DNA from: Coptis chinensis
Taxonomy: Eukaryota > Streptophyta > Magnoliopsida > Ranunculales > Ranunculaceae
Reading direction: 5' to 3'
DNA: 64,000 nucleotides
NCBI GenBank assembly: GCA_015680905.1
Contig: CM027377.1
Coordinates: 38,774,501-38,838,500, forward strand
Shown here: positions 14,268-60,275 of the stretch, in pieces
Position numbering within the stretch: position 1 is the stretch's first letter
Layout of the letters: each line of letters starts with the position of its first letter
The notes under the pieces: generated by a model
Told to the model about the DNA's origin: nothing
Database searches by the model: none
What the model saw: only the letters and a program-made list of their open reading frames with translations
Translations under genes and position numbers: made by a program

Positions 14268-14275
14268 CCAACTCT

Positions 14276-14803: not shown

Positions 14804-14811
14804 CCAACTCT

Positions 14812-31300: not shown

Positions 31301-32922
31301 CTAGGAGAAGTCTAGTATTTTTTTCAGTAGGAATGTGCATAACACATCAGAAAATGATTCTTAGGAGATGGAAGGTAAGGAGGTTCACAGAAAAGGAGAA
31401 ATACTTGGGAGTACTAATCATATTGGGAAAGAAGAAGGGAGAGGACTTCGATTATCTTTTAGAAAGTTTACAAATGAAAGTCAGTGGTTGGAAAGCTAAA
31501 ATCCTTTCACAAGCTAGCAGAACCACTTTAGTCAAATCAGTAGGGCAAACAGTGCCCATCTATGCCATGGGAGTTTATGCATTACCTAGCAGAATCAATG
31601 AAAGGATAGATAGACTCAATCGGGATTTTTGGTGGAATGGAACAACAAATTCTACTGCTTGGCATACTATGAGTTGGGAGAAACTATGCAAATCAAAGGC
31701 AAATGGGGGTTTGGGTTTTAGAAAAGTCAAAGAAATGAATTTGGCCATGTTGGCTAAACACAGTTGGAGACTTATTACAGATGAGAATTCAATATGGTCT
31801 AGAACTTTCAATAGGATATATAAGTGGGATTGTTTTAATAACCAAGATGGTAAGAAGAAAAAACAACAATCTTTTTTCTGGAGAGGTGTGCAGTTAAGTA
31901 TGAAAGCAGTAAAGGAAGGATTCATGTGGTTACTTGGTAATGGCTCTAGGATTAAAACTTTTTTAGAACCTTGGTTATCTTTTCTTGATAAACCTCTTAT
32001 TTTAGGAAACCACCTAAACCCAAAAAGAGTCAACCTGAACCTCACACGTAGAGTATCTGACCAATCTAGGGAAAATGAGGAGGAATGGGACATTACTAGG
32101 TTAGGAGAATTGTTTCCTAACCTTATCTCTGATTGTATTAAAACCTTAACTATCAAACCAAATGTCATTGATAAAATCATTTGGTGGAAAGATAAGAAGG
32201 GAGTTCTTACAGTTAGGTCTGCTTACAAGTTACTTGCCAAAGAATATGAGGAGGGTGAGAGCTCTAGAATGAATAAAAAGAGTATAAGGACGATCTGGAA
32301 AATAAAAACTGATGCAACCACTCAACTCTTTACATGGAAAGCTTACATGGGAGGTCTACCCACTGGAGCAGTATTGATGCAGAAAAAGTTTAAGGGTGAT
32401 GTAAGTTGTGTTTTCTGTGAAAGGCACGTTGAAACTGATTATCACTTTTTCTTTGGTTGTGAGTGGAGTAGAACACTATGGTATGGATCAAACATAAGTT
32501 TGAAGGCAAATGCAAAAGAAGAAAAGGATATCAAATGTTGGCTTGATGATTTCATTAGCTGGGAGAGAGACAAGGATCTACAGGCTTCCAGTACCTATGG
32601 TTTATGTATGATGCATGAAATCTGGAAAGCAAGAAACAAACTCAAGTTTGAAAGAAAGAGGAGCAGTTTCCAGGAGCTCTACACAATTGTGAATCAAACA
32701 GTCAAGAGAATCACAGAAGCCTATACTGCAGAGAACAATCCATCCCCTAATGGCCAGGATCTTCGTCATGTCATAAACAATACTTTAGATTTTAGTGTGC
32801 GCCATAGGGGTTATATAGCAACAAGAACCTCATCTCCTTTGATGGTGCTTTTAACAGATGTGAGAATAAGGGGGCGTCAGCCACAATATGCAGAAGTCCA
32901 GATGGTAAATTACTTGGGGTAG
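31249..32922 (+). pseudogene. Second LINE, ORF2 thumb and zinc-binding region
   Basis: A 557-residue open frame, the longest in the window (first in-frame start is not meaningful, as it continues the RT). It contains KYLGVLIILGKKKG, VSGWKAKILSQASRTTLVKS, RINERIDRLNRDFWW, LCKSKANGGLGFRKVKEMNL, RSAYKLLAKEYEEG and the zinc-binding LMQKKFKGDVSCVFCERHVE TDYHFFFGCEWSRTLW (C..C...H....C). This order is standard for plant L1 ORF2. A frame change near 32,790 leads into the RNase H domain. Confidence 0.9.
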
Positions 32923-33281
32923 CATACATGAAATTCAATTGTCAAACAACTATACAGGCAGAATGTTATGGAGCAGAAGTCATAGCTGCTCTAATTCAGA
33001 TGCTAAAGCTAGGGCCCTCTATAGTCTTGGGAGATAATCGTCAGGGGATGGATAGGAATGAGGAAAGCTTAGGTTGGCAAGTAGAGGAACATGTGAATAA
33101 AATTTTAGATTTATTTCAAGTTTGTAATATAAATAATGAGTCCAATTCTGAGTTCTTTTGGATAAGCCGTAACACCAATGGAGATTCCCATGAACTGGCC
33201 AACTGGGCAGCAAAATATGCAGGAATTGGACCTCCTCCAAATTGGGTTTTTGAGTCTGTAACTCCTCTTATGAGATTTTAA
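32770..33281 (+). pseudogene. Second LINE, C-terminal RNase H domain
   Basis: RVT_3-type plant RNase H fused to the LINE ORF2. After a frame change the reading is FNRCENKGASATICRSPDGK, LLGVAYMKFNCQTTIQAECY (catalytic Glu in AECYGAE), LGPSIVLGDNRQ (Asp position) and WISRNTNGDSHELANWAAKY (terminal HELA). The first Asp strand is altered. Plant LINEs with this domain form a known L1 subgroup; the first LINE in the window shows no such domain. Confidence 0.85.
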
Positions 33282-35052
33282 AGAATGGAAAGAAGTGGAT
33301 TATCGAAAAAAGAAAAGAAAAAGAAAGATATTGTTGTTGTGATTTATTGTATGTATTATTCTATTTGTATCTTGTTATCGGTCTTGTAAAGATTTCAATT
33401 TCTGTCAACGCAATCATCTGATCTACTGAAAAACAGAATTTGAGCACCAGGTTACCTTGGAATAGAGACAGTGGCGGAGTTAGAAATTTGTTCTAGGGTG
33501 AGCCGCTGACCACTACAAGTTTTCAACTGAACTCAACTAGGGTACACACAAAACACGAACTTAACTAGTTTGTTATCTTTTGGTTAAACATTTGTTAATC
33601 TATATACATTATATAATTTTTTATGTAACTAACTATTCTTATTTTATTTTGTCAATATTTTTGAAAACTCAAATTATATTAATATTTTGGAGAAATAGAG
33701 ATTTCGTAATTCATAAATGTTGGATCACAACTTACATCAACAAGTTAGGTTAATTAGTTTAGCCTCTAGACTTTAGTTTATTGAATTAATTGTATAGGTT
33801 TGTTCATTATGTTATTTGGTTTATTAATTGATATAGCTTTCTCTAAAACAAGATATCAATTTTCCCTTTTTTTTTTGTTAGGTATCTATTTTTTGTTGGT
33901 CCTTGTGAAATGTCACATAATTTGTAAGAATTATATAGAAGTATTCAAACATATACTATGATCGGCTTACTATATCAGATCCTTGTTTGCTTGTATTAAT
34001 AGCAGTTCTTTGTTTGGGTTTTTACTAGAAAGTGGACTCCATGTGTTTCTAATAAATCCACCGGTCAAATCAAATAACATTGCAATTTCCCAACCAGCCC
34101 TCTATAGTTCTCTTTATTTACAACAATTAAAGCCCTTACTCAATGGTAGAGAGAGAATTCAGTGGGCAAAGTTATTTCTCTCCTTACTTTAGTTTTACAC
34201 TTTTACACTTTTAGAGCTTCTAGATTACGCATATAGATGTGGTGTGCAGTCTTCTGAGCCACATATAGTGCGAGGGTAAAATTGGAACAATTAGTGAACA
34301 AGTTGCTCAATAGGTTAACGAAAAATTCAAAAACTAAAAATAAAAAACACGAAAATTTCCACTTTAGTGCTAGTTTCGTTTAGTGTTCTCACCTTCTCAA
34401 ATCCCTAATTCCAATCCTTGAGTGTTATTGCCTCGTCAACCCACCGTCGGCTTGCAAAAGATACTCTCTCTCTCCCTCTATCTCTTTTTAACCCAAATTC
34501 TTCATGAATCAGTTGGTTTTTTTTTGTTTTGTGGCAATTAGTTAAACTTACTGTTTTGTTTAAGCATTAGTTGGTTGTTGGGATTGGGGGTTTGTTTCTG
34601 TTATGTGTGCATAATCTAGAATCATATATAGGTCTAATGTTTATAGTCCTGTTTCGTTAGTTGGTTAGTTTCCTTCATTTAGGCATTATCTCATAAGTAG
34701 GTTAGTGGTTAGTTATTAAGTAGCTAGTGCTATAAATTGTAGTGTATCTCATCTATTGGGAGGAGAGAAGAATATTATTGTAGTTTGCACTTGTGTGTGG
34801 ATTAGGAGGTCAAAGGCTCCTCAATAAGCCTTAATGTTATGTGTTTTAATTTGATAAAATCACTTCAAGATTGTATCAGTTTTCAGTGGATATTTTGTCG
34901 TAGATGTTGGTTTGCGCATTGATATAGAAGCCCTATATATTTGATTGATTGTTGGCCTTCGGTTTTAATAATTGTTGTTTATTTCTTTTTTGGTTAATAT
35001 TACTCATCATAGTTTATTGTTTTTCTAAAATCTAGAAGCTCTATTGATCTAT
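33282..35052. other. Intergenic stretch with LINE 3' end and no gene
   Basis: LINE 3' UTR at the start (A/G-rich to 33,330). A CT-rich run (34,464-34,490) and TATA-like motifs near 34,730 are compatible with an old promoter or LTR, but no coding follows. I support no gene here. Confidence 0.45.
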
Positions 35053-35055
35053 ATT
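35053..35055 (+). other. Left target-site duplication of CACTA element 1
   Basis: ATT directly before the CACTA terminus; its partner ATT is at 48,525-48,527. CACTA elements make 3-bp duplications. Confidence 0.85.
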
Positions 35056-35530
35056 CACTATACCAAAACAGGACATTCCTAACGGTCAGAAACCGTTACT
35101 AAAAATATTTGTAACGGTTTTTTTGCATCACAGTTTTGGCGTTTCTAATGCGTTATTGATATTCGTAACGGTTTAAAACCGTTACATAAATATTTATTGT
35201 AACGGTTTTTTCCGTAACTAAAAATATTTGCTAACCGTTTTATTTGTTTAATTGTATTACTCTTTTCTAACATTAGTAATGCTTTTATAGAGTTCGTAAC
35301 GCTTTTTGACCGTTACTCTTTTTTAACAACAGTAACAGTTTTATAGTATTAGTAACGCTTTTTTGTGTTACTCTTTTCCAACAACAGTAACGGTTTTAGA
35401 AAGTTAGTAACGTTTATTTATGTAATTGATTTATAGAATTTGTAACATTTTGGTAACGGTTTTGTTGTTTCGTAAGTGTTACTTATTACAAAGCTTAGTT
35501 ACGGTTTTCCACTGTTACAAAACTATTTCA
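35056..35530 (+). repeat. Left terminal and subterminal repeats of CACTA element 1
   Basis: After the terminal repeat, the motif GTAACGGTTTT or its complement AAAACCGTTAC recurs many times (for example 35,107, 35,165, 35,196, 35,384, 35,450, 35,497), including a near-perfect palindrome at 35,165-35,185. In En/Spm such motifs bind the TNPA protein, which controls excision and methylation state. Confidence 0.85.
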
Positions 35531-36651
35531 TATGTAAAAAAAATAATTTCCCCCAAAATCACTTTTTTTGGGAGACTACTAACCTGCATAAAGATGTCCC
35601 CACTTATTGGGTATTCTACAATCGTCCATAACATAAACAAGAAATCTCACAAGTACATTTAATCACATAATCTTTTATTAAAATAACATCAATAAAACGT
35701 CTTTTCATAAATAGGACTTGTTACGAATGAAATATACATTGTTTTCCAAATCAATGGGACTTGTCCCTAAACTCAAGCTCTCACGTCATTTGTACAAAAC
35801 TCTTACTTTCAATAGTTGCAAGCATCAGGGGATGACTTTGGAATGGTATCATCAGAAAAGTCCTATTTATCATATACACCAATAGAAATAAATAAAAAGG
35901 AGTCGGGCAGTAGAAAACAAATATGTATAGATATATACTTATATCATTATATCTTATTCTTAAGTAGTAGTTCCTTATACTCAAACTACAAAATTCAGAA
36001 AAGAGAGTATGGTAGTAGACTAGTAGTAATAGAAGCATAGTATTGAAAGTTTATGTAACGCCCCAAAACCCTATAACCTTGTCAGACACTTTGACGAAAG
36101 ACATAAAAATTTCGGCAAAATCTCCTTTGTATTTTCAACATTTCATAGACATAAATCCCGTTATAACTTGAAAATCAAATAATATACTTTCATAACATAT
36201 ATTAAAACCTCAGACCTCGGTCGTAAACCTAACTACTCAAATATATATTGATTCGTAGAACCAACTATTTAACCATCTCGACCAATGCCAGTTAAGTCAA
36301 ATAACTAATCCTCGAATCAAAAGGACACTATATACACTAGTATACTGCATTGCAGACTTGCAGTGGGGGCATGAGCGGAGCGGGGAAGATTTTTTTTTTT
36401 AGGGGGGAAGGGGTTTCAAGAATATAAAATGTCCATCTTACTTAGGTTTAAACGGTTTTTATGCTTTCATACATAGTTTGACTGGATGGGATTGGAATAT
36501 CAATAAACTACAAAGAAATCATGAACATACCTTAAGGGGTTATGACTTATGATGTCCAACGTCAAGGTCACTTTTCTGATTATCTGACAGTGACATTATT
36601 TTCTTTACAGAAATGCACTCATGGCTGAAAGAGACATCACATAATACAGAC
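35531..36651. other. CACTA element 1 interior, left spacer
   Basis: No gene seen. TGTAACGCCCCAAAACCCT at 36,054 followed by AAAATTTCGGCAAAATCTCC resembles the start of a plant gypsy LTR, so a nested LTR fragment is possible (low support). A T-run lies at 36,391-36,400. Confidence 0.35.
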
Positions 36652-38090
36652 CTCTATAAGCATGTGCCCTGGCTGCTCAAGGTCCTTGACGACAATTGGA
36701 CAAACTTCCAATTGACTCCCCATTTCAACAGCCCAGCTTGCACCATTTTCCTTGCCCTGATCTTCAAATAACTCTAAGTTTTTTTTGTCAACAACCTGCA
36801 AAGATTGTTGTTTTTAGATTTGGAGTTGATACGTAGTTAATAAATTACATTCCACCTAGGTGGGAAAAAAAGAAGAATGATTCTTTAGACAGACAACAAC
36901 TTACATCTCATATACACACCGCTTTAAACTTTCGGTTAGTAACACTTCTTAGAAACAGCATGTGCTTTATGGTTTGATCCAACAAAGAATCAATGCTACA
37001 CTATTTCATCACGAAGAAAAAAATGTGAATTACTTGAAAGCAAAAGGCAGAAAAGTCGGTAAAACCACGCCAGAGACGAGAGGATATACTACTATAAAAC
37101 AAGTATACACCTTTCCACCATTTGGGACAAGCTCGTGAGCTCCTTAACTTCGATCTTGGATCAACTGTCATCCCTCGGTCTTGGCTTTTGAACATCACTA
37201 TTCCCGGCCTTCTTTTGGCCAATGTGACATGGCTCGGTATCCTTCCTAGATAGAATACACCCAAAACCCATTTCTTGTTCTTCGCAATCAAATTAGCTCT
37301 CGATCTTTTCGGTGAAGATTTAGATGGACACTTTGTAAGATCTTTCCCCGTCGGAAACAAAACCAGTTCTTTACCGAGCTCCATGGACTGAATCATTTTC
37401 TCCCAACCGACCGCGATCCGAATTGACTTCATCTGCGTTTGGCAAGAAACAAAGACAATCATCTCCGAGGAGCTTGTAGGTGATCCGATACTATTGGATC
37501 TAGCGATGCAATATCCCTAGAAACATCACACATATATGAAACCATTGCATCCAATAGATTATCTGCATCTCCTTTTTTCAAAATAAATCCATTCGATACC
37601 CCCCGGTGATGGCTCCCTACTTCCAAGTGAAATCAGATTGCAAATTGAGTCGCTACGACATCATCACCGATCCATTTGGGATCCACAGATAATCATTGCA
37701 ACTTTGTTGGAGAGATGGACCAAGTGCTTTGTGTAACTCGCGACTCGTGGGAAAGTTTAAAAATCCATGCAAACTTTTCTCGATCGGTCCACCGACCGGA
37801 CTCGCTTCAAATTGGTGATCCACCATCTCATAATAAGGGGAAATGTTCATACCCATGTTAGTGAGAGCAGAAAAACTATGTTCATTGAAGTTATAGTGTG
37901 AAAAAACCTGTAGATTTTCCTCTAGACCAGCAAGGTCAGGTGCATCAAGTCCCATCATATCCAAATGGTTTTCATTCCACAACTGGTTTTGATTATACGA
38001 TACTGCAGTAGTATCCATGGTTAGATCTCCAAATCCAAATGCCATTATGCTATCAATATTGTTACTTTGAACTTGAAGATAATCTTGACC
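36652..38090 (-). pseudogene. Captured LHW-like bHLH gene fragment, intron-containing
   Basis: Fragment of a LONESOME HIGHWAY-type bHLH regulator (nuclear factor for vascular initiation in plants). Pieces in gene order on the minus strand: 38,090-37,653 with LWNENHLDMMGLDAPDLAGL and SRELHKALGPSLQQ; 37,590-37,476 with NLLDAMVSYMCDVSRDIASL; 37,230-37,090, the bHLH basic region, readable as AGNSDVQKPRPRDDS, a stop, then SKIEVKELTSLSQMVE; and a clean 144-bp exon 36,795-36,652 (acceptor CAG, donor GT) reading GASWAVEMGSQLEVCPIVV and DLEQPGHMLIE. N-terminal GAF-like region and final exon are missing. Frameshifts and a stop in the DNA-binding region abolish function. Family known; capture is inferred from location inside the transposon. 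Confidence 0.85.
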
Positions 38091-38424
38091 AATAAATTGG
38101 GTTTTCAAGTTTTTCATCCAAGACCAAACACAAGTAAGAGGTAATAAGCTAATTTGGTGAAAAAATAAAAAAACTGGAACCACAGGACATCACTTATTCA
38201 GTGACTTGCTTTTTTCTACATTTAACATCAATTTTAAAGCGGTTTCATATTTTCTAATTTTCAAATCATTTTTAAAGTGATCCCACTGTTTAGAGAGAAT
38301 TGAATGCTCCCATTGTTTACCCAAGTGGTCAACCCACAAGCTGCCATTACTGCTATTCATCAAAAGTAGGACCACAAGCTTCGGACAATTAGCTTATTAA
38401 GACTCTTAATCATCTTGGTGCACA

Positions 38425-40362
38425 CTAAACATTGGACAACATATTTAGGTGACGGAGAGTAAACAAGCCATTTGGGCCACAACAACTATTCGAGTAGATA
38501 TGGAGTGGGGACGCACCTGGTTTGTCCAGAGCTCCTTCAGAAAATGGAGGTGGATTGTGCGGTCTGCATACTGCCACTAAGATCATGAGAAGGATGACCA
38601 ATGCACCTAAAGCAATTCCTAGGATAGTTGCTTTATATATTGAGGTTGCAAAGACCACATTGGAGGAAAATAATGAAATTACCAAGAACTAGAAAAAACA
38701 ATTAAACGCAAATATAACCACATTAATTTTGGTTTTCAAGAAAATGAATGAGTTCGATGATATGGTTTTTAGAAAGTGGGGACGACTCCGAAAGGGCATG
38801 TTCATGAAGTGAATAATCTTAGACGATATAGTAGCCATTTACAGGAATAAGGAAACCATAGGTCCCGTGTGGTGCCCATTCAATTGAATTTTGACAAATT
38901 TCAGATTTCGACATGCGGCCAAAATGATATTTATGTGCACAATGACCACACAGATTTGTTAGAACGAGCAACGAATTGGAGAATAGTGACAGTAGAAAGA
39001 TCCGTCTAAGAACTTATGTGTACCTCATTCAGGAGAGTGAGAATTGTGGCAAGGAGAATCAACCCAAGGACCGCAAAGCCTAGGATTTCCAACAAAGCTG
39101 CAGAGAAGACAATCCACCCGTAGAATCTAAATCGAACCATCTATGTCAAGAAAGTGAAGTGGTAGCTCTCCCACGAGAAAAAAATGTTTACAATCACTCA
39201 CCTGCTCGGAGGAAACATTGAAAACTTTTTTCCCAAAGGAATATCACCAGCTAAGTTGTTGTATGACACATTTCTGCTTAGATGCAAATAAGATACTATG
39301 AGGACTGCAATTTTCACCTATAATCAACCTAATAATAAATTTGATAGAGTTCCCAGACAAAAAGATAACTTACAGAACATTTAGACTGAAGCAGTTGACA
39401 ATTGAAAGAAGGTATCCAATTAAAGTGAAAGAGATCCGTTGATGTTCTTTGCAATTGATTGCATCAGCTAGGGATATGTCAAAAGGTGCACTGAACACAC
39501 ATTTGTCACAGAGCCAATGTCCTAAAAGTCTAAAACCTAAGGTTCTTCCCCCGACAGGCTGAATTCGGGATTCATTCTCTAATATTAAACATCAGAAGTA
39601 TAACTCACAGTGAAAACAAATTTCAGAGTGACCGAAGTTCCCGAGGAATTTGACCATAGAGTTGATTTTCTCGACGTGTCTCTACAATATAATAGCATGG
39701 TTAGATTGGTTCGAAACATTACACATGTATGTTAATGTAATAAAATAGGAAAAACTGGAGGTTCCTTACATCTCCATAACACTTCTCGATTTCCAAACTC
39801 GGCCGGAATGTAACCAAATCAACTGTTCTTGCTAAGAATTCTAGTGGATAAACATACAAGGCATTAGCTATAACTCTATAAAGAAGAAAAATGGAGATGG
39901 AAAGGCACCGGATAATAGAACTTAACAATTTCAAAAGATGTTCCAAATCACCAATGAAAGAAGGAATGGAGCCGTAAATCTTGTTATTTGATAGATCCCT
40001 GAGGAAAAGAAACTAATGAAATAAACATTCCAGGGCTGATAAAAAAAAACTTCTTTGGTTTGATGGTACTTACAAAGTATCTAAATTGCCAATCCGTGAC
40101 AGTTCTATAGGGATAGGGCCTTTGAGATTGTTGGACGAAAGATTCCTGTGGTTCGCAAGAACAACACATACCCATAAGCTACCATACCGTCCATACGAGT
40201 ATATGACAGAACTTAGAGCAAAAAAGAGGGTACGGCTGTTAAAATGATAACATTCTGAATTATGAAAAATTATTGAATAACAGGACTCACAAAGACGTCA
40301 TGCTCTCAAGTCTTTCAAAACCAGGTGGGATACCTCCACTCAATTTGTTGCCATAGAGATTG
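38425..40362 (-). pseudogene. Captured ERECTA-like receptor kinase fragment, intron-containing
   Basis: Part of an ERECTA-type LRR receptor kinase gene (plasma-membrane receptor for EPF/EPFL peptides). Exons in order: 40,362-40,291 (NLYGNKLSGGIPPGFERLES), 40,145-40,074 (NLSSNNLKGPIPIELSRIGN), 39,998-39,927 (DLSNNKIYGSIPSFIGDLEH), each exactly 72 bp with splice sites; 39,840-39,770 (71 bp, YIPAEFGN, one stop); about 39,681-39,610 (NQLYGQIPREL); about 39,420-39,365 (weak); about 39,290-39,200 (NVSYNNLAGDIPLGKKFSMF); about 39,100-39,027 (VGNPRLCGPWVDSPCHNSH); and the transmembrane exon about 38,660-38,510 (YKATILGIALGALVILLMIL, VAVCRPHNPPPF). The first LRRs and the kinase domain are absent. 72-bp LRR exons and the RPHNPPPF juxtamembrane text identify the family. 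Stops and indels show decay. Confidence 0.9.
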
Positions 40363-41112
40363 CTGCCATTAAATCATGCTCTCTATTCGAATATTCACTT
40401 AACCAATATAGGACAAACTATTCAATTCGTAATCCAGTAAATTGGAAATGATCTTAAATGAACACTCTGAAAATATTTACGATCCACTATATTAAGAGGT
40501 AATATGATATGCTAAAAAAGAGCACCCCTACTAACCTTGCCAGCCCTTGAAAAGAATTGAAACACGTCTTTTTCATCTTCCTTCAAAGAAATCTGTCAAA
40601 CAAAGCTTAAACTCTGAGAATTGAGTAGAAAAAATGATAAAAATAAGCATAAACATGAATTGGAAAATAAACCAAAAACGATATGCAAATACAGTCCTTT
40701 GATCTCGTTTTGTATCAGCCTCTGCCCTCTGGCTCCACTTCTTCCTTCTTCTCTTTATAGCGTTTGTAGGAAATAGTCCAAGGCTCCACCATCCTCCCTC
40801 CTCCTTTATCCGGGCTTGGGACCGCGAAGGCAAAACCAATTATATTGATTTGCACAGCGGAGTTAAAATGGGTTAGTACTTTCTTCAACGCTAAGCAAAC
40901 AAGCATACATATACTGCAATCAAATTTAATAAATAGATATAGTACGAACATATTAAAGTCAATACTCATCCATACCAAAAAAAGACCATAAGTTTGTCAA
41001 GTCACTATGACATCCATATTAAATAAAAAACAAACGACATTCAAAACATAAAGTAACCAAACCATACTGAAAAATTCCAAGTTCAGAAAGTTTGCATATC
41101 CCAAACAACTTA
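40363..41112. other. CACTA element 1 spacer between captured ERECTA exons and tnpA
   Basis: No supported gene. Short minus-strand frames at 40,573-40,978 match nothing I know. The border between captured and transposon DNA lies somewhere here and cannot be fixed by eye. Confidence 0.4.
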
Positions 41113-42918
41113 TTAAGAAAACTGCATCCTTGACTCGAGCCAAATTAAATGACCTCCTGCACTAAAGCCATCCAAAAATCTAACTCCATCTTGGGGCCTA
41201 TCGTAAACAAGAGCATCACCAACCAAGACTTCCTCTATGTAGACCTTTTTTTCACCTGCGAGAACTTTTCTGCCATTGCAATCTCTCAAATTGCTCTCTG
41301 TCATGACATACCCCTTAGCAACCACTACACCATCCCTATCTAATAAAGATACATTTGGTGAAGAACCAAGCGTCCCAAAAGGAGGATTCAAATTTGCAAA
41401 CATATTCATCAAGTTTTGTTGAGTCGAGTGACGAATAGAACTGGAACCGACTTCATTTTCTGGTGTTGTTGGGCCGCACGGTGGTTGAGCAGTCGGTGTT
41501 CCATTGCTTTTGACAGCCTTAAGTACATCCTGACACAATTTATAGTAACAATTAGTTATACATAATGATATTGTATGCAATAAAGCACAAGTGCAAACTG
41601 CAAACTCACCTTTAACACGCCCATGACATTAACTAAGGAAGACTTCATCTCATTCATTTCCCCCTTCAACTCAGAATTGGATGAAGAGTTTGCTTGCTGC
41701 AATAATGCCTTGGCAATACCTGTACGTTGCAATTGCCTTCTTAGACTTGTTGGAGCTGATTCCACGAAGTTCTACTCCCCTTTGTCGGGCCCAAAGACTT
41801 CAGACAACTCATCATTATCGAAGTCTACTTCCATTACACTGCCCTCACCACCCGCGCTTCCTTCTTTTCTTCTTTTATGAGAAGCCTCCACTTGTTCCTA
41901 CAATATTAACCACCGATATGAGTAATACAATATGCAACATAGTCTATATACAATACCAACACACAGGTAAGTTCAAGCTTCAATGTTATTAGAACTTACA
42001 TAATGGGTCCGAGCACTTGCTAATATAGTTCCATCACGACGCTCATGTCCTTTTTTCCAACTATCTACCCGTCCATGTTTTTTGCTAGGATCTTCTTTAT
42101 CCTACAAAAAAAATCCTTAATAGTTGTTAGCATAACCTGATAAGAAATCGTTAGTGCAAGAATAGACACCTACCATTTTATCCAGTTTATGGGCATATGT
42201 GTCCCGCCCATTAGTATGTCGATATATATTCTTTTTGGCATTCTCTGCATTCTTTGCGTTTCTAGCTCTCACTTCAGCGGTACTCTCATTTCTAACAAAC
42301 ACAACCCAATTATTTGGGTCCTTACCATCTGGGCATGCTGCAATAGCTTCTTCCACGCTCCCGCACTTACGCAAAATTTCTTTCCGCAGGGCATACTTTG
42401 TTGATCTGAATTTTTGGGGAAAGTCTTTTTTAACTTCTCGGCGTGCCATTGCTTGGGGAACATTAGGCTCAAATTCTTCCTACATGAACAAAGTGACTTT
42501 TGTTTATTTCATATTAAGTAAATTTCCATACATAGGGCTGGACAACATGTAGATATAGGATTTGAAAAACATACTAATATTCAAGAATAATGGATGCTAT
42601 CATCGAAATTAAAGTACATGTAAATCTTACCATTAATTTATTCCAGACATTATCCTTGAAGCTTCCATCTATTTTCCTCCAATCCTTGTAATGAATTGGA
42701 ATACAAGATCGAACATAAATACCAACCTGGGTATTCCATTTGGCATGGTTAGGACCCACAGCGACGCCATCCTCATCGAACTCTATAGGTAACTTGGTAA
42801 TCGTTGGTGAGTTTCCCGAAGGCTGAGATGTGTGAGAGTTTGAAGTTGAATTATGAGATGGAAGTGGGACTGAACTCGATGGCTGGGAAGCAATCGATTG
42901 AGATTGACCTAGTGCCAT
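41113..42918 (-). pseudogene. CACTA element 1 tnpA-like (Transposase_24 type) gene
   Basis: Second CACTA protein, thought to bind subterminal repeats. In several exons on the minus strand: 42,918-42,620 (SQPSGNSPTITKLPIEFDED, NHAKWNTQVGIYVRSCIPIH, FKDNVWNKLM), 42,449-42,180 (EVKKDFPQKFRSTKYALRKE, PNNWVVFVRNESTAEVRARN, THNGRDTYAHKLDKM-like end), 41,765-41,610 (coiled stretch NSSSNSELKGEMNEMKSSLV), and 41,530-41,122 (SSPNVSLLDRDGVVVAKGYV, LVGDALVYDRPQDGVRFLDG), ending QFS stop. The middle segment is the plant Ptta/En/Spm transposase motif. Introns with GT/AG-like borders separate the parts. Coding looks less damaged here than in the TNP2 gene. Confidence 0.8.
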
Positions 42919-43315
42919 TATTAAATAGCCTACTTTATGACAAAAAAATGTTAGAACAAATAGGTAAAATTAGGATACCACAAAAAAATAACAAAGTTCA
43001 AAACTATACATTTATAGAGACTATTCTTGTTTAAAAAAAAAGATAAAAAACAACTCAAACACACCTTTCACCCAACTGCACAGACAAACTTCAAAATAGA
43101 AAGAGTTAATATATCTAAAAGTAGAAAATGAGAAGTTCGCATGCAACTAAAAATCTCACAATATGATAGTGCAACTATTACAATCAAGTTAGACTTTCCA
43201 TCAACGACTGCAAATTAGGTTGGTCCTCAAGAATAGATTGGAAGTCAGTTGGTGCATCTAGTTCATCAACTCGACTTGTCAATCGCCTAGGGTTTAATTT
43301 ATGACTACCCACCAG

Positions 43316-43804
43316 TTAGGATTTCTCAAATCCTCCGAGTAAAAAACACCGACTAGCCTCGGAAGCAAGAATCACCGGCTCATCAAAGTACTGATCAACA
43401 CTTTTTAGCCTATTGAGATTAACCATCACCAAATTAGAATCTGGACAAAGTTTACAACCATTGGTCTTGTCCTCCACCCTCACCCAATTGCAGTAAAAGA
43501 CAACATGCTGGAAGGTCGTATAGTCCAACTCTATTATCTGTTCGATAACCCCATACCACTTAGTCGATGCATCAATGAGATTTTTGTCTTTCCTACTCGA
43601 CGTAAACGTAGTGATTGCTTTCATGCAAACACCACTATCTTGTGTGGAAACTGTTTCGTCATGCGATCTAGTAGAGAACACAAAACCATTAACACGATAC
43701 TTTTTATATGTTTTAGCTTTGAACAATGGTCCTTGGACAAATCGCCATAAGTCACAATCTGTGTCTTTTGCAGCCAACAACTGTGAAGTAAAAAAAAATG
43801 ACAA
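43316..43804 (-). pseudogene. CACTA element 1 TNP2 C-terminal exon (DUF4216)
   Basis: The domain found at the end of plant TNP2-type transposases. The frame reads LWRFVQGPLFKAKTYKKYRV, NGFVFSTRSHDETVSTQDSG, KWYGVIEQIIELDYTTFQHV, VVFYCNWVRVEDKTNGCK and NLNRLKSVDQYFDEPVILAS (W/D/Y/F-rich blocks as in the family). It is followed by FLLGGFEKS and a stop. It is one continuous frame of about 160 residues preceded by an intron acceptor near 43,805. Confidence 0.85.
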
Positions 43805-44048
43805 TTAGAAAGATAAAATTAAAATACTAATTGTAATATCCTACTAAACTAAATTATATATAAAACAATACCTTGTCATATAACCACACAATAAACTCGG
43901 TCAGATTCCACTTCGCCTTTGCTACCCCTTTTTCTTCCGCACGTCGCGGTTGCTTGCAAGGCACGGTATTCACTACAATTTGTTTATACAGTTTGACACG
44001 ACTATTTATTACGACTTTTTAGACTAGTAAATGTTTGAGTCAAATCTA

Positions 44049-44975
44049 TCAAAAACAATCAAACCTCAGATCTTGTTCATCAAGCTTTTCGATGTCGAGT
44101 CGAAAAAGAACCCACCTACGGATTTGTATCCATTGTTCCTTGTCTAGGATCACAGTTTTACCCTCAAGTATAGGTCCCTCATCACTATACTCTCCATCTT
44201 CATCTAGAAACGCCTCTCGAGTAGCTTTGTGATTTCCATCCCGAGAATTTGGCATGTACTCTATAGCATACCTAATGGACTTCGAAACAATATAGGACCC
44301 CTCGCGAATGGAGCCTTCAACATAACGCTTATTGCTCGGAATATTTTACACTCCTTCATTGCCCTATTAAAATAAACAAAACCAAAATTGTACTTTGTAG
44401 TTTCGTCGATAATAATTGCCACTAAATAAGAAATAAAAGTAAAGGCATTTTACATACCGTTCAAATGGAAACATCCACCTAGGATACACAGGTCCACAAA
44501 TCAGCCCTTCATCAGCCAAATGCACCAAGAGGTGGATGCTGATATCAAAGAAAGCGGTTGGAAAATACTTTTCCAATACACACAATGCCTCTGCAACCAT
44601 GTATTTGGCATCTTGGATTTCCTTTCGGATTAAGACTTTTGAACATAGAAGATTAAAAAATAAGCTAATCTGATGAATAGCTCTATGCAAATCGCGGTGT
44701 TTTGGAAAAGCGTGTTGAAGCAAAACTGGAAGCAAGTAACACATAATCACGTGATAGTCATGTGATTTCATTGTAAGCAAACCAGGAGGACTCAAAGTGA
44801 CAATGTTTTTTAAGTTCGATGAAAAACCTGTAGGAAGCTTCAAATTCTTCAAAATTGTGCAGAACTCAAGCTTCTCATCTTTATTCAAGACAAATGAGGC
44901 CTTTGGTTTAACAGATCTCCCTGTGATTGGGTCTGTTTGCATCCATTGACCACTATGAATCCCCATTTTCTTCAA
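44049..44975 (-). pseudogene. CACTA element 1 TNP2, DUF4218 region
   Basis: The middle-to-late part of the TNP2 transposase. Reading: DLKKMGIHSGQWMQTDPITG, LKLPTGFSSNLKNIVTLSPP, LTMKSHDYHVIMCYLLPVLL, FPTAFFDISIHLLVHLADEG and VYPRWMFPFERY. Then an intron and a short exon (44,255-44,049) with MPNSRDGNHKATREAFLDED. The frame joins the upstream TNP2 core only through a frame change near 44,975, where the same bases read NTRI-stop in one frame and FEHEDLKK in the other. Confidence 0.9.
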
Positions 44976-46212
44976 ATCCTCGTGTTCGAATCTGTATCCT
45001 TTGTTTTGTCTTTCTTGTCAAGAATCACATTTATTATGTGTTCTACCACGTTCTTCTCATCGTGCATCACGTCAATAACATGTCGAATTTTATGCTTCGG
45101 CCAATATTCCAGTTCAAAGAGAATAAACCTCTTATACCATGCTTCAGTAACTTCATAATCTTCATCATCTTCATCATCTCTAATAGCAACCACATCCACA
45201 TCATCTATACTCCGTTTGGTACCTTTTAATACTTTCCCAGGTACATAATGGACACGACTTAACATTTTCTCAATTACTTCTCCCTTTAACTTTGGCGGAG
45301 GAGGGTTTAACTCTTTTGTCTTAACTCCTAAGTATTTGCCTTGCCTAAATGTGTGATCAGATTTAAGAAACATCCGGTAATTTATATAGACGATCTTCCT
45401 TGCGTTCCGAAGATGCATAGACGGAGTTTCATCACCACAAATAGGACAGGCTTTGTAACCATGTGTTACACAGCCTGATAAATTGCCATACGCTGGTAAA
45501 TCATGAATGCCCCACATCAACATAGCCCTCAAAGTAAAATGCTCCCGTTTGTGCATGTCATAAGTCACCACCCCTTCTTTCCATAACTGTTGTAACTCAT
45601 CAATTAGTGGTCTAAGGAATACATCGATGTTTTGACTCGGTGCCTTCGGCCCAGGTATTAACAACGACATCATATGGAACTCAGATTTCATGCACAAAGA
45701 CGGTGGCAGATTATAAGGCACCACGAAAATAGGCCAACAACTATAACCAGTGGATTGAATCCATCAGTTGCAATTCCAAGCCAAACATTACGCCCTTCCT
45801 TAGCAAAATCTGGCCAATCATCTTTACATGTCTTCCACTGAAGCGAGTCGATTGGATGCCTCATATAATTCCAAGAAGGTGTCGCTCTACTGTGCCACGC
45901 CATTTCACGTGCTATCCATGATATAGTGTACAACCTTTTAAGTCTAGGAATCATAGGGAAATGTCTCAATACTTTTCTCGCCTCTTTTGTTTCTTTCTTT
46001 CCCGATTTCCCCTCCTTTACTTTGTACCTAGGCGTTTCACATTGATGACACACTGTCAAATCAGCTTCAGTCTTATAATACAATTATTTTCACATGCATC
46101 TATGCACTCATCTTTCATTCCCAGATCTTTCAACATTGCCTTCATTGCAGGATACTTAGAAGGCAAAGTGTTTCCATCTGGCAACCACGTTTTCAACATA
46201 GACAAAGCGCAG
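44972..46212 (-). pseudogene. CACTA element 1 TNP2 transposase core (Transposase_21)
   Basis: Catalytic transposase of the CACTA family; cuts at the element ends. Pieces: about 46,210-46,085 (MLKTWLPDGNTLPSKYPAMK, DECIDACENNC), 46,083-45,735 (TEADLTVCHQCETPRYKVKE, LRHFPMIPRLKRLYTISWIA, HPIDSLQWKTCKDDWPDFAK, EGRNVWLGIATDGFNP) and 45,724-44,972 (NLPPSLCMKSEFHMMSLLIP, GPKAPSQNIDVFLRPLIDEL, MLMWGIHDLPAYGNLSGCVT, YKACPICGDET and HVIDVMHDEKNVVEHI). Frame changes near 46,213, 46,083, 45,735 and 44,975 break it, so no complete transposase is encoded unless introns hide at those points. Confidence 0.92.
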
Positions 46213-46746
46213 TCACACTATTTCCGACCAATTATACTGCTTCTTCAAGTTATGGAGGTCCATAGCTGCTGAAAGGGTTGTGACAGGAGCCTCACATGAG
46301 GGGTATAATTTTTCTTCTGCTTTTTTCTTATATTCATTGTACCTCTTACCCAAATCAGGTTCTAGAACAATAGGTGGTTCAACATCTTCGGCTTGACTTC
46401 CATCGCCTCCACTCAAATCACCCACTAATTCTTCATGCATTCCATAAGCAACATCAACAAAATTCCCTATCCCTAGTCCTTCCTCACTATTTTCTTCTTC
46501 AACTCGGTTTACCATTCGATCCTTATATGGGTTCTCACCATGTAAAACCCATACACGATATGTTAATTCTATACCGTTACGAATCAAATGTTTTCTAACT
46601 ATATCATACGCAAACCTTTTCCTATTTCGACATTTGTTACATGGGCAAGGACACGTGGTCGATGTTTCGTCTTTGCCACTAGCGAATAGAATAAAATCGG
46701 AAACCCCCTGCCTATACACACTCCCAAGTCTGTCATTTTCATTCAT
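46213..46746 (-). pseudogene. CACTA element 1 TNP2 N-terminal zinc-binding (Transpos_assoc) domain
   Basis: Start region of the TNP2 gene. The frame reads RQGVSDFILFASGKDETSTT, CPCPCNKCRNRKRFAYDIVR (Cys cluster), KHLIRNGIELTYRVWVLHGE, then an acidic stretch and KKAEEKLYPSCEAPVTTLSA, AMDLHNLKKQYNWSEIV. The family N-terminus begins slightly upstream, around 46,760 (RISQPIPKDWMNENDRLGSV). It stops or shifts at 46,213 before the core. Confidence 0.88.
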
Positions 46747-46769
46747 CCAATCTTTTGGAATCGGTTGAG

Positions 46770-48360
46770 ATATTCTGCAAGTAGCACATCAAGTAAACAC
46801 AAGGAACAAGTGATAGGGTCAATGTCATTTCCTACTAGCCTGGCTTTTAGCACTATCTGTTTATGAAAATTTGATGCATAACATTCTATAAATATTGAAC
46901 TATCTCAGTAAACAAGCTAAACGGTGCCTACATTTTAACCATTAAATTGCTAAACATGATCAGATGTACTTCAATTGGTAAACACAATTAGATATGAACT
47001 ACTTGGCACTGGAAGGATTAAGTGTGGACTGATTTCAAATGCTTTACTTTGAAGGCATTATAACATATAAGCACAAAATGCATGACAAAATAAAAGACTT
47101 CTCATTCCCCCCAACACGCGTACACTCTATCGGTTTGCACATATATACAAACTCATGTAGTTCATTGTAGATTTTATTCCAAAGGCTCAGCCAATAGGAT
47201 GCAGACTGTTAAATCACTTCGATACAAGTTTGAAAATTTTGAACTTGCTTCAAATATGAGTCTGAATTTCAAAAAGAGATACTTTGTGTGCCAGTTCAGA
47301 TTTTATCTATTAAAACCCACAGTTACCAGAAACAAGACATGGGTTATTCTTTGTTTAAATATTTCAACCCATTCCAGCATGAACTCTAGAAAACCTTATC
47401 TACGCTATCAAACTAAAAAAAAAAGGGAGTTAGATACTACTAACAATCTAACAATCCACAAACCAATGCTGACAATGGGTAGCTTTAATCCTGTTATGTG
47501 AGATGATAACTGGACGGTTGTTACATCGAGATGGAGTCCGCCATTTCGGTTCGAGCATACCTTGTTAATCACTCAAGACAGAGCTGAGATATTGACCCAG
47601 TGTTAGAATCATTCAACCGGTGAAGGGGAGGACACTAACAGATGATTCCCTTTTATTCAAAAATTTCTCATCAACAGGACTAGTGGTATTCATTATACAG
47701 ACCGTGTGTGTGTGTTTGCTAGCATGAATATAAATCTAACAATCCACAAACCAGGAAAAATATAAATCATAACATAACTAAAATAAGTAATTACTAATTA
47801 CATATAGAAGAGCAAAATCAAACCACAAAAATCAAATTTTTTAATGAATAACAAGTAATAAAACATAGAATAACAAGTAATAAAACATAGAATAACAAGT
47901 AATAAAAAATGCACCTTTGGTTATAACTGTAGCCAACTAACACCCAAGTTAATTTCAGTTGTGATATCACCTAGTAGTAGTGTGAAAAATTGAAAAAGAG
48001 ATATGAAATGATGAAACATAGAAAATCATAGAAGAAGAACGCGAAGGAAGTCGTTACCTAATAGCGGCAGCAGCGGCGACTGGTGCTGACTCCAAAAACT
48101 TGTTGAACGATGAACTTGAACGAGAGAGGCGATGAAAAGAGCGAAACTTGTTGAACGAGAGAGGCGATGAACAATATAAAGCTTGTTCATTAGTAATCTT
48201 AAATAGGAGAGAAGAGCGCGATAATTTTGGCCTTTCCCTCTCACCGAAAATTCTTTCCTCTCACCGAAATTTTTTATTTAGAAATCTTAAATTCTAATTT
48301 AGCTATTATTTTAATATTATATTTAATATTCACGATTTATTTAAGCTTTTTGTCCAAACA
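46770..48360. other. CACTA element 1 5' leader and right spacer
   Basis: No coding recognised. Expected to hold the transposase promoter on the minus strand and untranslated first exon. A TG microsatellite occurs near 47,705-47,714. Confidence 0.5.
47846..47909 (+). repeat. Three tandem copies of a 22-bp unit
   Basis: The unit GAATAACAAGTAATAAAACATA is present three times head to tail, the last with slight change, inside the right spacer of CACTA element 1 (unit length counted by eye; first 20 bases GAATAACAAGTAATAAAACA). Confidence 0.9.
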
Positions 48361-48524
48361 AACAATTTAAAAACGTAACAAATTGATTCTCATATTTGGC
48401 AAAATTAACGTAACACTTTATATATAATTGGAACGCTTATAAAACGTTAGGAACCTAGTTACACTTTAAAAATGTTACTAAGCAAAAAACTGGAGCGTTA
48501 CTAATATCATGTTTTGGTGTAGTG
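48360..48524 (-). repeat. Right terminal and subterminal repeats of CACTA element 1
   Basis: Contains AACGTAAC, AACGTAACACTT, GGAACGCTTATAAAACGTTA, GTTACTAAGC and GCGTTACTAAT near the end, related to the left-end GTAACGG family, then TGTTTTGGTGTAGTG. Orientation is inverted relative to the left end as expected. Confidence 0.85.
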
Positions 48525-48527
48525 ATT
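48525..48527 (+). other. Right target-site duplication of CACTA element 1
   Basis: ATT, identical to 35,053-35,055. Confidence 0.85.
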
Positions 48528-48820: not shown

Positions 48821-49012
48821 CACTACTACAGAAAAGGCCTAAGATAGCATGCAAAAAACGCTATGGTTGGTGTCTATAGCGTTTTCCAAAACGCTATTAA
48901 TGACGGCGCTATGCTTTTATTGATAGCATTTTCGTCAAAAATGCTATTGAATTGATAGCGTTTTCTCTTAGCGCTATTAAAGATCAATAACATTTATTAT
49001 GACAAACGCTAT
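48821..49012 (+). mobile_element. CACTA-type left terminus (element 2)
   Basis: Begins CACTACTACAGAAAAGGCC and is followed by an array of GATAGCGTTTTC / AACGCTATTA motifs in both orientations over about 190 bp, the layout of a CACTA terminus with subterminal repeats, but unlike element 1 in sequence. The array ends abruptly where mitochondrial-type sequence begins. No matching right end is visible in the window. It may be the left end of the minus-strand transposase set at 53.9-61.0 kb or a separate fragment. Confidence 0.7.
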
Positions 49013-52000
49013 TATACGGCTCCGTCCCGAGCTTCCGTCCGTCGGCCCTTGTCATTAGACCACTATCTATGCATGTATTTTCCGCCTGGACTCTCGAATC
49101 TTTTGCTTCTCGGGTGGTGGCGAACAATGCTGCTTGCGTTATGGGAGATGCCCGCCCGAAAGAATCGCTCACTAGCTAGGCAGACTAGTGGGAGGGGGGC
49201 ACAACCGTAGAAAACCATGCCTTTCGAACCACCAAGGAACGTCCCGCGTGTAGCGGTAGTAGCTTGTTTCGCCCATTTTCAAAATAAAGAAAAATGGGCT
49301 TATTAGGAAGAAAGATTGAGTGCGGCCTGTAGAGCACATGTAACGCCCCTATCACGTAAGCGGGTTGCTCACGCAGCAGATCTCTCTCTATCTATAGCTA
49401 GAGAGAGAGATGTGAAAGTAATAGCCTTAGCCGCCCGATTTACGGCTTTTATGCTTAACTACTACCGTGATGTGAGCGGTTCAAATTGGTTTGATCTTTC
49501 CCAATCATCCCGACCGGAACTTGTATGCAGACTTGTATGCGGAGGTACATGCATAAAGGTTTTGAACCCTTTTCTTATCTGAATCTTAAGGACGGGACCC
49601 TACCTACCCTATTCTCGAATCCTATGCCGAGCTCTACCTTGCCCGCGATTTCCTTTTGAAGGGGCCAAAGAAATGTCTCCACCCGCCGCCAACGGTCTTT
49701 CTTCGAATTATATCTTCGAATGGGTCGATCCTCCCCTTCCCGTTTGTTTTAGCAACTTATCCTAAGGTCTCCTCGCCAAGAGCTCCCCGGTGACGACAGA
49801 GCAACCAACCCGCCTCTTTGTGGCGGTGTGGCTTTTTGTTTCACAATAAGACTGGATGATTATCCCTACCCTCGGTAGCTTATGAGTTTACGCCCATCCC
49901 TCGGTCGGGTACAGTTTCCTTTGATTTCTCCCCTTGTAGCAAATTCCATTAATTCAAGGCAAGTGTGTCCACACCACCAAAACCGACTTGACGAGGAATC
50001 CATTTCGCTGAACAAACACACCCCTACACACACCTAGGAGCACCCCTTCTTGCATATCCATACAAGACTTCGAGTAGGTGGGTCGAGGTCCCACGAGGTA
50101 CCCACTACTCGGAGTACCCTCCCAAAAAGAAAAAGATGTGTCGGGTTCGGTTCTTCTTAGTTGGGTTGGCGGTTCGACCGAAATGCTATGCTTACGCGAC
50201 AAGACTACCCCTCTTCCGAAAAGCTCGGCGGGGACTACTTTACAACGAGGGACGACCGCCGTAGGGGTTTTTATCGCACAAGGCCCTTTGCAGAGGAAAA
50301 GCTTTATCCCAATAATATAAGATACTCACTCCGCGACAACATAGGGATTGGCACGCTTTCGGGAAGAACATAGAATAGTAGAGGATCCAAAGATGCGGAA
50401 CACGGCGATCATTAGAAATTCACGAATTAGAGATGCTGTAATATACTCTTTCCCATAACATCTCATACCGCACCACCCACCCCATTGAAATGCAAATAGG
50501 GATCGAAATGTGGTCAATATCACGAAGAATAAAAGAGACCATCTATACCCATATACAAATTTATGTTTTCATAAGGAAGCCATGAAGGCTTTCCACAAAT
50601 TTAGATTTGGCGTAGAAGGATCGAATTGTATCCGAGGAACAAAAGTAATAAGAGAAGCGCACGCACCAATCAATCATTGTCGTCATTCGTATTCTTGAAT
50701 TTGGAATGAAAAGAGGAGTAATGCTTCCTAGCACGGGACACGAAATAGGACCACTTAGATCGAAATAGCATTTAGAGAAATGTTCTAACATAGAGTAGAA
50801 TCGAACATTGAATAGATAAGTTGAAAACAGTCAAAGGGCGCCTAATTCCAATACAATAAGGGTCTATCAAGTGCAAGTCGGTTTGAACGCCGTGATTGAT
50901 GAGTGGGTAGGTGGGTTAGGTGCACCTCTCGCCCAGTGGGAAGTAATGAGGCAAGCCCCCCTCCCCCTGAATGAAGAAGTAGTGCACCCCCTTCCCGCAT
51001 ATACACCTTTATTTAGATTTTATCTTTTTTTTCATTATTATATTAATTTTTCATCTTTCTAAAAAAATATCTCTGGCAAAAACGAAATTCATCGATTTTA
51101 ATCCAAGGTGCAGTGCACCTTGCCTTTTTTCAAGTAGCTTTGTTACGCCTATATTCAACTAGGGGGGCATTGGTCATAGCTAAAATTCGTTGAAGGGAGA
51201 AAAGAAGAGAAAGAAAGGGAAGTTTCGTCTTTTTTCAATCCAAATAAGAGAGAAACCACTAAAAAATGGAAGTTAGAAAAATAAGTTTAAGTAAGAACTA
51301 GCACTAGACTTCTTCCCCTTTCCGCTTTCCTCTCTCTTTTATTTCGCTTTCACCCGGGCTTTTCATTCTATTTTATAGAGACCGAGGAATTTTTCTAAGA
51401 ATTAATGTAGAAAGGTGAGGCACTTTCCCCGCATAACTGGAATCAAAAAATCCGGATGACTGCAGATCCGGGAGGGCTCTCGAAACGAAACTAGACTAGA
51501 AGGAACATGGGAATTAGCACCATTCCTATGAGTGCTTTTGTCTCGAAGAGCCAACCAAAAAGGGGCAGCCTCTCTCTCTATCTAGGTCTCGGTTTAGCAT
51601 CATATATAGATCTGGAGAAATTTTTGATTGGTTGTAGTGCAGATTAAGGAGCTGCTCCTCCATGCTGTGGCTGTGGAGGTGGGGGCAGGCGCCTTCTGAT
51701 AGAGGCAAAAGCCGGGGCCACTGGAGCTATCTGCGTCAAGTGTGTCGATTGAAAGAGGAGGGGAGACAACTCAAATGCCAGCGCAGAAATAGAAAGAGTC
51801 GTGCCGTTCAAAGTGGAATTCTTCTAAGATCCATTGCTCGATTTTGCATGCTCTGCATTGGTCAGCCCGATAGGCATGACCCTTCGATTAGAACGCCCCG
51901 TATCTCGTCACACGCGGAGTGTGGCATTTCCTTTGAAAAAGTCCGTATAACTTCTAACCAAAGATGCATTGTTTATGAAGAAAGTACCATTCTAAGAGTG

Positions 52001-53340
52001 CATTGCCTCTTTGAGTGAAGAAGAAAAGGTCTTTGTATAGACACTCTTGAGCCATGTTCACCGCCCTAGGCTCACCATTATTTCATTTCATTCATTCTAT
52101 TGATATAATTCCGTTCCGTCAGGGTTCTAGCTCCAAAGAACATATGCATGGAGCTATGTCGACTTTACGACGCCTCGTTGACCACCCGATCAGGTATACC
52201 ACGTATCATCCCCTCTTTCCATAGAGGAGAGATAAAGAAAAAGAAAAGATATAGTGATCGCGCGCAGTAGACCTTGTTTAGTTTCTACTTGACATTCATT
52301 ATTTTCCTAGGTATTTTTTACATTATAGCCCATGGTGCGGTCAGCTATGATATACTCAACTTCTTATTTAGTAGGTTCATCTACAACATCTGGTGGTGCC
52401 CTCGTGGTCACGTTCCTCTCGGGTCGGTCCGGGTCTAATCGAAGTCAACTGACTCACATGGAATACGGGCTGAGTTTGAACCGAGCTGGTCGCTTGAGTC
52501 TATAGGCTACCTTTCCTATCCACTTCTCTACAAGGTTTAGTCTACTTTCTTCTTCCTTCAGACTGGGCCAAGCCTGTGGGTTGTTTAAGTAGGTTGGGAT
52601 AGGTTTGGTTTATTTTTTGAAGCTTGGTCTAGAGTTCAGAGTTCGTCCCCATTTTTATTTCGTAGGCAATCAAGAGGCTGGAAGTGATTGACCATCTATA
52701 TTAGGAATGGGAGGTTCGAAGGTCAGGGCTCAGTTTGTTAGCGATGTCACCAAGGGCCAGAGGAAGGAAGGTAAACGTGTACTTGTTTTTTGTCGAGATT
52801 GGGTTGGTGTTCAGTGTACTCTATTTGATTTAACATTAGGCCAGAAAAAAAAAAAGAGAATATAGTAGAGCTAACTGAAGAGATCGAACAAAGCAGATGT
52901 AGGATTCAAAGTCCGAGAAGCCTAAGTCCCCTCACCATCAAACTAGGGCTATTCCTCGAAAAAAGAAATTACAAAAGTTTTTTCTATCCCAAAAAGGGCT
53001 CCAGAAGGCGTATCTTTAGGCTAAAAAACACCGAGTGTCAGGGGTATCTGGATACTTTTTGTTCCTTGGCAAAGGCGAAGGGAAAGCCCCAGCCATTCCT
53101 GTTGCCCCAAACAACAAGTGAGTGACTCTGTGCCTTCACCTGTTATGTGAGGAGAAAAAGAATTCAAATCTAGCCACGCTCCCCTTCCAGCACAACTAAC
53201 TTAGGAACGATTCAGAGAAAGGAAAGATTTTTGCCTAATGTAAGCTCCCCCATCTTCCGTTAGCCTCGTCACTCATTACACCCGCCACTCGTTGGCCTTT
53301 CTCCAGCCTATCTCACTCGCTCTGCGTTAACGAGCTAGCT
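49013..53340. other. Nuclear insert of mitochondrial DNA (NUMT)
   Basis: About 4.3 kb, GC-richer than its surroundings and of plant mitochondrial character (short palindromes such as CTCTCTATCTATAGCTAGAG, many short CG-rich blocks). Identity rests on nad4 exon 1 at 50,791-50,338 (minus strand). The part below 50,338 then corresponds to nad4 intron 1 and the part above 50,791 to nad4 upstream sequence. Borders are placed by composition: left where the GCTATTA array stops, right near CGAGCTAGCTGCTATTGG. It lies between a CACTA terminus and CACTA tnpA-like sequence. Confidence 0.85.
50338..50791 (-). pseudogene. nad4: Mitochondrial nad4 exon 1, decayed nuclear copy
   Basis: Exon 1 of NADH dehydrogenase subunit 4 (respiratory complex I, inner mitochondrial membrane). 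The start reads MLEHFSKCYFDLSGPISCPV, LGSITPLFIPNSRIR; then, after frame changes, FYAKSKFVESLHGFL, MILTTF..., GMRCYGKEYITASLIREFLM and a final ESVPIPML segment. The end of the exon is followed by GTCGCGGAGTGAG, resembling the GUGCG start of the group II intron. Length about 454 bp against the usual 461. It carries missense changes and frameshifts, and without its later exons and organellar editing and splicing it cannot be expressed. Confidence 0.93.
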
Positions 53341-56640: not shown

Positions 56641-57079
56641 ATTTTGTTTGAAGTGAAGTGCCTTTATGTCCTTGTCAAAATCCTGAAATGTCAACGATGC
56701 ATAATGTGGCAAAAAACATCAAGACACAAAACTGATATGAACAAGACAAGAGAGAGTACCAAAAACAAATCACAACACATATTAATAAAAACAAACAACC
56801 AATACTCATACTAAGATGAACAAACAACTGAAGTGCCAAATAAATCAGATACTAATATTAATAGGAAAAACTGCCAGAACTAAACAACCAGAACTCATAG
56901 CCGAAAATATTAATACAAAAAACGTTTTACTAAATTGCCGAAAGTACATGCACTACACATAGTCTCCCTCACAGTCCTTTCTAACATAGCTACCATCTTC
57001 ATCATCAATGTTCTTGTCAATTCTCGAAACATCTAGTGGTCCTGAGAATATATCGACATTCTCCGCATACATATCCAAG

Positions 57080-60240: not shown

Positions 60241-60275
60241 CGTCAATTTTCTCATCCCTAAAAAGATAACAATCG

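Follow-up and report, generated by a model that had tools for sequence, protein, structure and literature searches.

A CACTA element of Coptis chinensis with joined fragments of an ERECTA gene and an LHW-family gene, very probably gained in two steps

How do pieces of two host genes come to lie side by side between the ends of one transposable element, and what becomes of them there? The question is raised by the stretch 35056-48524 of a 64-kb window of Coptis chinensis DNA (the window being the whole stretch that was analysed), which is one CACTA (En/Spm) element with host gene fragments as its cargo. It is very probably a transposase-bearing CACTA element that gained these fragments in two steps, the joined cargo then spreading. 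The element is bounded by terminal inverted repeats that start with CACTA, CACTATACCAAAACA at 35056-35070 (plus strand) and CACTACACCAAAACA at 48510-48524 (minus strand), which agree at 14 of 15 bases and are flanked by ATT at 35053-35055 and 48525-48527 as a 3-bp target-site duplication (TSD). The degenerate motif CACTAYACCAAAACA occurs exactly in the window only at both element ends, and with up to two mismatches it gives three matches against 0.41 expected, a count reached in none of 100 shuffles. A search of the window's own assembly (935.6 Mb in 116 contigs) for ends together with cargo, as proposed in an earlier note on this DNA, yielded a second whole copy at C9:40703715-40717215, which aligns at 93-94% over 35047-48525 in two alignments and carries its own TSD, CCT. 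An origin of the two ends from different insertions is ruled out by this copy, as it spans both.

The earlier note had read the locus as a CACTA insertion with matching ends, ATT flanks and TNP2 coding sequence, and this is borne out. The TNP2 transposase region at 43316-46788 (minus strand) is split among several open reading frames (ORFs) with Transpos_assoc, Transposase_21, DUF4218 and DUF4216 pieces, and PF02992 is matched above its cut-off with an E-value of 1.9e-60. The tnpA remnants that the note had also named, at 41113-42969 (minus strand), correspond to a weak Transposase_24 match of 17.5 bits, under the cut-off of 28.7. Of its subterminal arrays, the left one is clear, with TAACGG-type repeats at 35073-35520 (extent judged by eye) and tandem units of about 55 bp at 35252-35423, but the right motifs at 48380-48509 (again delimited by eye) are weaker; in addition, an imperfect inverted pair of 33 bp is found at both element ends. 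The left CACTA block (35056-36541) is common to other copies and to an element at C4:25.75 Mb, designated L053, that holds ERECTA sequence only; the backbone to the right of the cargo (40378-40776) is likewise common to L053.

Between these backbone parts lie a captured LHW-family bHLH piece at 36547-38100, a filler at 38101-38288, and a captured ERECTA piece at 38289-40377 running from leucine-rich-repeat (LRR) exons to the transmembrane exon. Both pieces keep their introns and are on the minus strand like the transposase, the orientation that the note had described, and these donor-based borders fall close to its span of 36.6-40.4 kb. Retention of the introns means that a spliced RNA copy was not involved, and cargo origin by that route is therefore ruled out. 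The bHLH_LHW domain (PF23176) is recognized in the cargo at 39.6 bits (cut-off 28.5). In a search of PDB sequences with the ERECTA piece the top total score went to GSO1 through many LRR matches, the best single stretch being ERL2 in the right register (68.9 bits); the ERECTA identity of the piece is settled because the donor gene was found.

Alignment of the cargo to the parental loci, also suggested in the note, located both donors, and on different contigs. The ERECTA donor at C3:104.02 Mb has LRR exons, transmembrane exon and kinase exon in one gene. The window piece falls in four blocks, in order, on C3:104024432-104027285, just before the kinase exon, and about 170, 445 and 205 bp of donor sequence are missing from it at three internal points. 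Only the first of the kinase exons was sought; the donor's kinase-start exon is 87% identical to the Arabidopsis exon used as query, the next locus reaching 71% and the remaining 148 listed loci at most 46% (150 of 1017 candidates scored). The LHW-family donor lies at C7:23533382-23534918 (23.53 Mb), its match being confined to window positions 36547-38100. It has a 445-codon open exon with the last LHW exon downstream, and is annotated as IFM89_037195, a protein of 732 aa with MYC_N (PF14215) and LHW bHLH (PF23176) domains; its identity is 51% with a protein of Aquilegia and 49% with a Thalictrum protein named lhw. Matches to bHLH_LHW were also obtained at three loci outside element copies (C5:93.13, C7:14.61 and C6:96.43 Mb).

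The position of the donors on C3 and C7 excludes the capture of one neighbouring gene pair, and adjacent ERECTA and LHW-like pieces free of CACTA ends were not found. The earlier note had two regulators of organ and vascular patterning travelling together. What is carried is fragments only, the ERECTA piece being without the first LRRs and the kinase, and the LHW piece without MYC_N and the last exon; and they were picked up not together but in two steps. The LHW label stands at the level of the family but not as a vascular-patterning role, the named relatives of the donor being lhw, bHLH155-like or EMB1444-like.

The order of the two steps is read from L053, which has the same end and keeps the left block. 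Its ERECTA sequence is unbroken and reaches donor position 3722, which lies in the kinase exon; the element gives no match to LHW. With its longer ERECTA stretch and no LHW, L053 indicates that ERECTA was captured first and that LHW and a 186-bp repeat replaced its kinase-side end. Comparison of the copies thus shows that a 3.2-kb genomic ERECTA piece from C3 first entered an element, with the left block on one side of it and the transposase genes on the other. A 1.55-kb genomic LHW-family piece from C7 was then added together with the 186-bp dispersed repeat between left block and ERECTA, leaving LHW piece and repeat in place of the kinase-side end. Capture itself could have occurred through faulty repair of a gap or break during transposition, in which sequence is copied from elsewhere in the genome and the ends are rejoined where a few bases match; at the junction 36541/36547 a shared TAAGG and a 6-bp repeat are seen. 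The dispersed repeat (38097-38282), which makes up the filler, is present at seven other places at 87-90%, with five shorter partial matches besides. In L053 itself, about 300 bp between the left block and ERECTA (1604-1906 of its reverse complement) look gene-like by eye and contain an ORF with ANPDYKGVIIVSLG; this 52-aa ORF has no Pfam match, and the stretch is possibly a third captured piece.

Divergence from the donors, a second line of evidence on the order of capture, was counted at sites at least 4 bp from CG/CHG motifs, dating by raw identity having been dropped after motif-linked differences emerged. For ERECTA, 33/1266 sites differ in the window copy, 35/1277 in the C9 copy and 62/2088 in L053; the corresponding LHW counts are 8/889 (window) and 6/888 (C9), and across the 20 copies compared the distance between LHW piece and donor is 1.2%. 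Between the seven full LHW copies the mean difference is 1.3% (0.2-2.6%), and at these sites none of the columns sets all LHW copies apart from the donor, which gives a star-like picture. Assuming 7e-9 substitutions per site and year, the captures would be roughly 1 (LHW) and 2 (ERECTA) million years old, as a rough guide only. At one place in the LHW exon, six of the seven full copies have a 17- or 18-bp insert relative to the donor and the seventh has 5 and 3 bp, which would fit either a single capture or a later loss from the donor.

The third step is the spread of the joined cargo to at least 15 places, in part as shortened elements. The left 345 bases give at least 46 matches, 40 of them near full length (including the window) at 92-100%, with 40 of 471 candidates scored. 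For the LHW piece, 32 matches fall in 27 places, namely the window, the donor and 25 others (one of only 63 bp); for 17 of these 25 the left-end matches listed include one no more than 8 kb away, in one case in opposite orientation. The ERECTA spread, at least 80 matches with 40 of 79 candidates scored, is a lower bound. The junction between the pieces (38050-38350) occurs at 15 places, the window among them, with at least 296 matching bases out of 301, and a 16th place matches over bases 1-263; the ERECTA side of the junction alone occurs at five other places and in the ERECTA donor, and the copy at C8:27.64 Mb has the ERECTA side only at the junction, with an LHW piece elsewhere in it. Several different deletion structures are seen among the copies compared. 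Two copies of 7.2 kb, on C3 and C7 (TSDs TCT and CGT), share the left 3.95 kb, comprising the LHW piece and the transmembrane-side end of ERECTA, but differ in the right half except for the last 80-90 bp; the TNP2 region of the window gives no alignment to either, and the three right-half ORFs scanned in the C3 copy (of 25 listed) have no Pfam match. Matching 3-bp flanks are present in all four elements for which both ends were compared. The right 3.2 kb of the C3 copy (L039) are not derived from the 13.5-kb element.

Several points weigh against this two-step history. The ERECTA-only state was compared in sequence for one element, L053, the others being judged from search tables, and the capture mechanism is drawn from a single junction inspected by eye. 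As the ERECTA piece is more intronic, its excess of divergence over LHW could be inflated. Both the left-end and the ERECTA scoring took in part of their candidates, and the genome-wide end search covered the left end, from which complete elements cannot be counted. Finally, at C1:24.52 Mb, where left end, LHW and full ERECTA are present, a 2-kb probe at the predicted right-end site gave no match.

The present state of the reading frames depends on how far the sequence itself can be trusted. In the seven full copies, 237 of 1673 cells at CG/CHG-motif bases differ from the LHW donor, with 77 indels, as against 50 of 4185 (25 indels) at bases at least 7 away from motifs. At the middle base of CAG/CTG, 116 of 482 cells show a substitution or a loss (T>C, A>G and deletions), compared with 196 of 8998 outside motifs. 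Among the 130 exon-region indels, 100 are no more than 2 bp away from a CG/CHG motif, a zone that takes in 34% of positions. The methylated base at a Dcm site is the second C, giving 5mC-W-G. The 936.6-Mb assembly was built, according to PMC8172641, from R9.4 Nanopore reads with Albacore 2.1.3, Racon and Pilon, and PMC6591954 describes Oxford Nanopore callers with default models erring at Dcm sites (CCAGG/CCTGG). Many of the apparent frameshifts may accordingly come from miscalled bases at methylated CHG sites, within repeats beyond the reach of short-read polishing. A literature search on Nanopore errors at CHG sites turned up only a paper on organelle assembly.

The frameshifts in cargo and transposase might instead be true mutations and the element a dead carrier of pseudogenes, an explanation that is possible but doubtful. 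Decay from C to T at methylated sites would likewise concentrate differences there, and among the changes in the 964 cells of CWG cytosines/guanines 91 are indeed C>T or G>A; moreover, the motif bases of the left block carry no indel in either of two comparisons, and L053 shows only six middle-base changes at CWG. Substitutions in the left block are nevertheless denser at motifs (10/155 and 18/169) than far away (16/738 and 16/700), although such enrichment between element copies leans upward, with motifs defined in either copy, and the donor-based counts were relied on instead. Since deamination of C leaves the middle base unchanged, the CAG/CTG changes count against true decay, as do the clustering of indels at motifs and the Nanopore reads and base caller behind the assembly. 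Real C-to-T decay probably adds to the motif-linked pattern. Read from the sequence, this error footprint suggests that the element copies are methylated, and the cargo is probably methylated too.

The public annotation contains a protein predicted from this cargo. IFM89_006693 (482 aa, region 37656-40576 on the minus strand, its start placed by eye in a six-frame listing) is a predicted fusion of LRRs, transmembrane span and LHW sequence with LRR Pfam hits. Its residues 253-309 correspond to 38688-38518 and residues 309-482 to 38177-37656, both at 100%, the ERECTA LRR exons preceding residue 253. The join uses ERECTA's own donor site, CAG|GTGCGT, with an AG in the filler, and stays in the LHW frame by eye. 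Two further proteins match cargo copies, IFM89_003641 on C1 (L017, 57.78 Mb) and IFM89_027939, named BHLH domain-containing protein, on C3 (L030/L035, 2.45 Mb), and IFM89_006376 resembles by eye the copy at C5:35.68 Mb (L010).

These annotations, together with the splice donor supplied by ERECTA itself and the continued LHW frame, would be expected if the cargo were a working new gene in which exon shuffling has joined ERECTA LRRs and a membrane span to the LHW middle region. Such a gene is extremely unlikely, given that parts of IFM89_006693 are out of the ERECTA frame or run across a deletion (by eye) and that the copies have several different deletion structures. The ratio of non-synonymous to synonymous polymorphism (pN/pS) in the LHW exon, 0.53 against the consensus over 18 rows, would also speak against it but is hard to read given miscalls, and was set aside as evidence because of the motif-linked differences. 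It is similarly very unlikely that the joint cargo is a young, amplified, exon-shuffled LRR-transmembrane-LHW gene with open frames, broken in appearance by miscalled, heavily CHG-methylated cytosines. Were this so, the old Nanopore assembly would show through its errors which copies carry methylation, and many a plant 'pseudogene' from assemblies of this kind would deserve re-examination.

A role in trans, in which small RNAs from methylated copies would turn down the ERECTA and LHW-family donors, appears improbable, even though the sequence overlap for it exists. Of the 21-mers of the LHW middle exon, 384 of 1025 are exact between donor and window copy and 932 of 1025 between donor and any of 31 transposable-element loci; for the ERECTA exons (approximate borders) the counts are 226 and 444 of 521, while uncaptured control stretches share 0 of 264 and 0 of 258. 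The error footprint, which suggests methylated copies, points the same way. However, any young transduplication is expected to share 21-mers with its source. We infer that the cargo is at present a passenger, with no role needed for the plant, in a transposase-bearing element that gained its fragments stepwise; as such it could supply exons and splice sites for chimeric transcripts.

Elsewhere in the window, an end of a second, different CACTA family, CACTACTACAGAAAAGG, lies at 48821, about 300 bp to the right of the element; this family (48821-60788) has TNP2, DUF4216 and DUF4218 pieces at 57.1-60.8 kb, and a search of the window that allowed up to three mismatches did not reveal its other end. 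To the left are Copia-like polyprotein pieces (11493-15592, minus strand, by eye), a piece with a plastocyanin-like domain (PF02298, 26960-27352, minus strand), probably from a host gene, and remains of a LINE-type reverse transcriptase (by eye) with a zf-RVT domain (29544-33281). Rfam and tRNA scans of the window gave no matches.

CACTA elements with several host gene pieces are already known from PMC1947982, PMC8903248 and PMC8978399. The Pack-CACTA elements of Arabidopsis and maize (PMC8903248 and PMC13317346) are alike in CACTA ends, TSD and captured coding DNA, which in some cases comes from two or more loci, as here. Pack-TYPE elements are, however, described in PMC8903248 as non-autonomous and without transposase. 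The window element does hold captured host coding DNA between its ends, but because it also has a transposase (PF02992) it falls outside Pack-CACTA as strictly defined, and the 7.2-kb derivatives come closer; of the earlier proposal that a Pack-CACTA moved both pieces, the joint spread thus remains and the strict class does not. Tgm-Express1, a soybean CACTA element, likewise carries unrelated host fragments with exons and introns, and chimeric splicing was reported for it; according to PMC1947982, it is 5.7 kb long with five fragments and sits inside intron 2 of a host gene, whereas the Coptis element has 13.5 kb, TNP2, two located donors and a joint cargo in at least 15 places. The Chenopodium elements with captured AP2 and neprosin pieces (PMC8978399) also hold them outside the element coding sequence, but belong to another plant order and include an AP2 piece of 80 bp, compared with kilobase pieces and located donors in Coptis. 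A literature search on Coptis and CACTA showed no title on this subject among the 8 papers listed of 35 (the term also matches Cactaceae).

The Coptis element is thus a well-documented new case of a known process, with its donors and an intermediate element. Cargo sequences now stand in the public annotation as proteins of the host, one of which bears the name of a bHLH protein. In early Nanopore assemblies of plants, as the motif-linked differences warn, a frameshift within a methylated repeat needs checking before it is read as decay. Because a single genome holds the two donors together with an intermediate element and shows the order of capture, stepwise gene capture can be followed here without recourse to other species.

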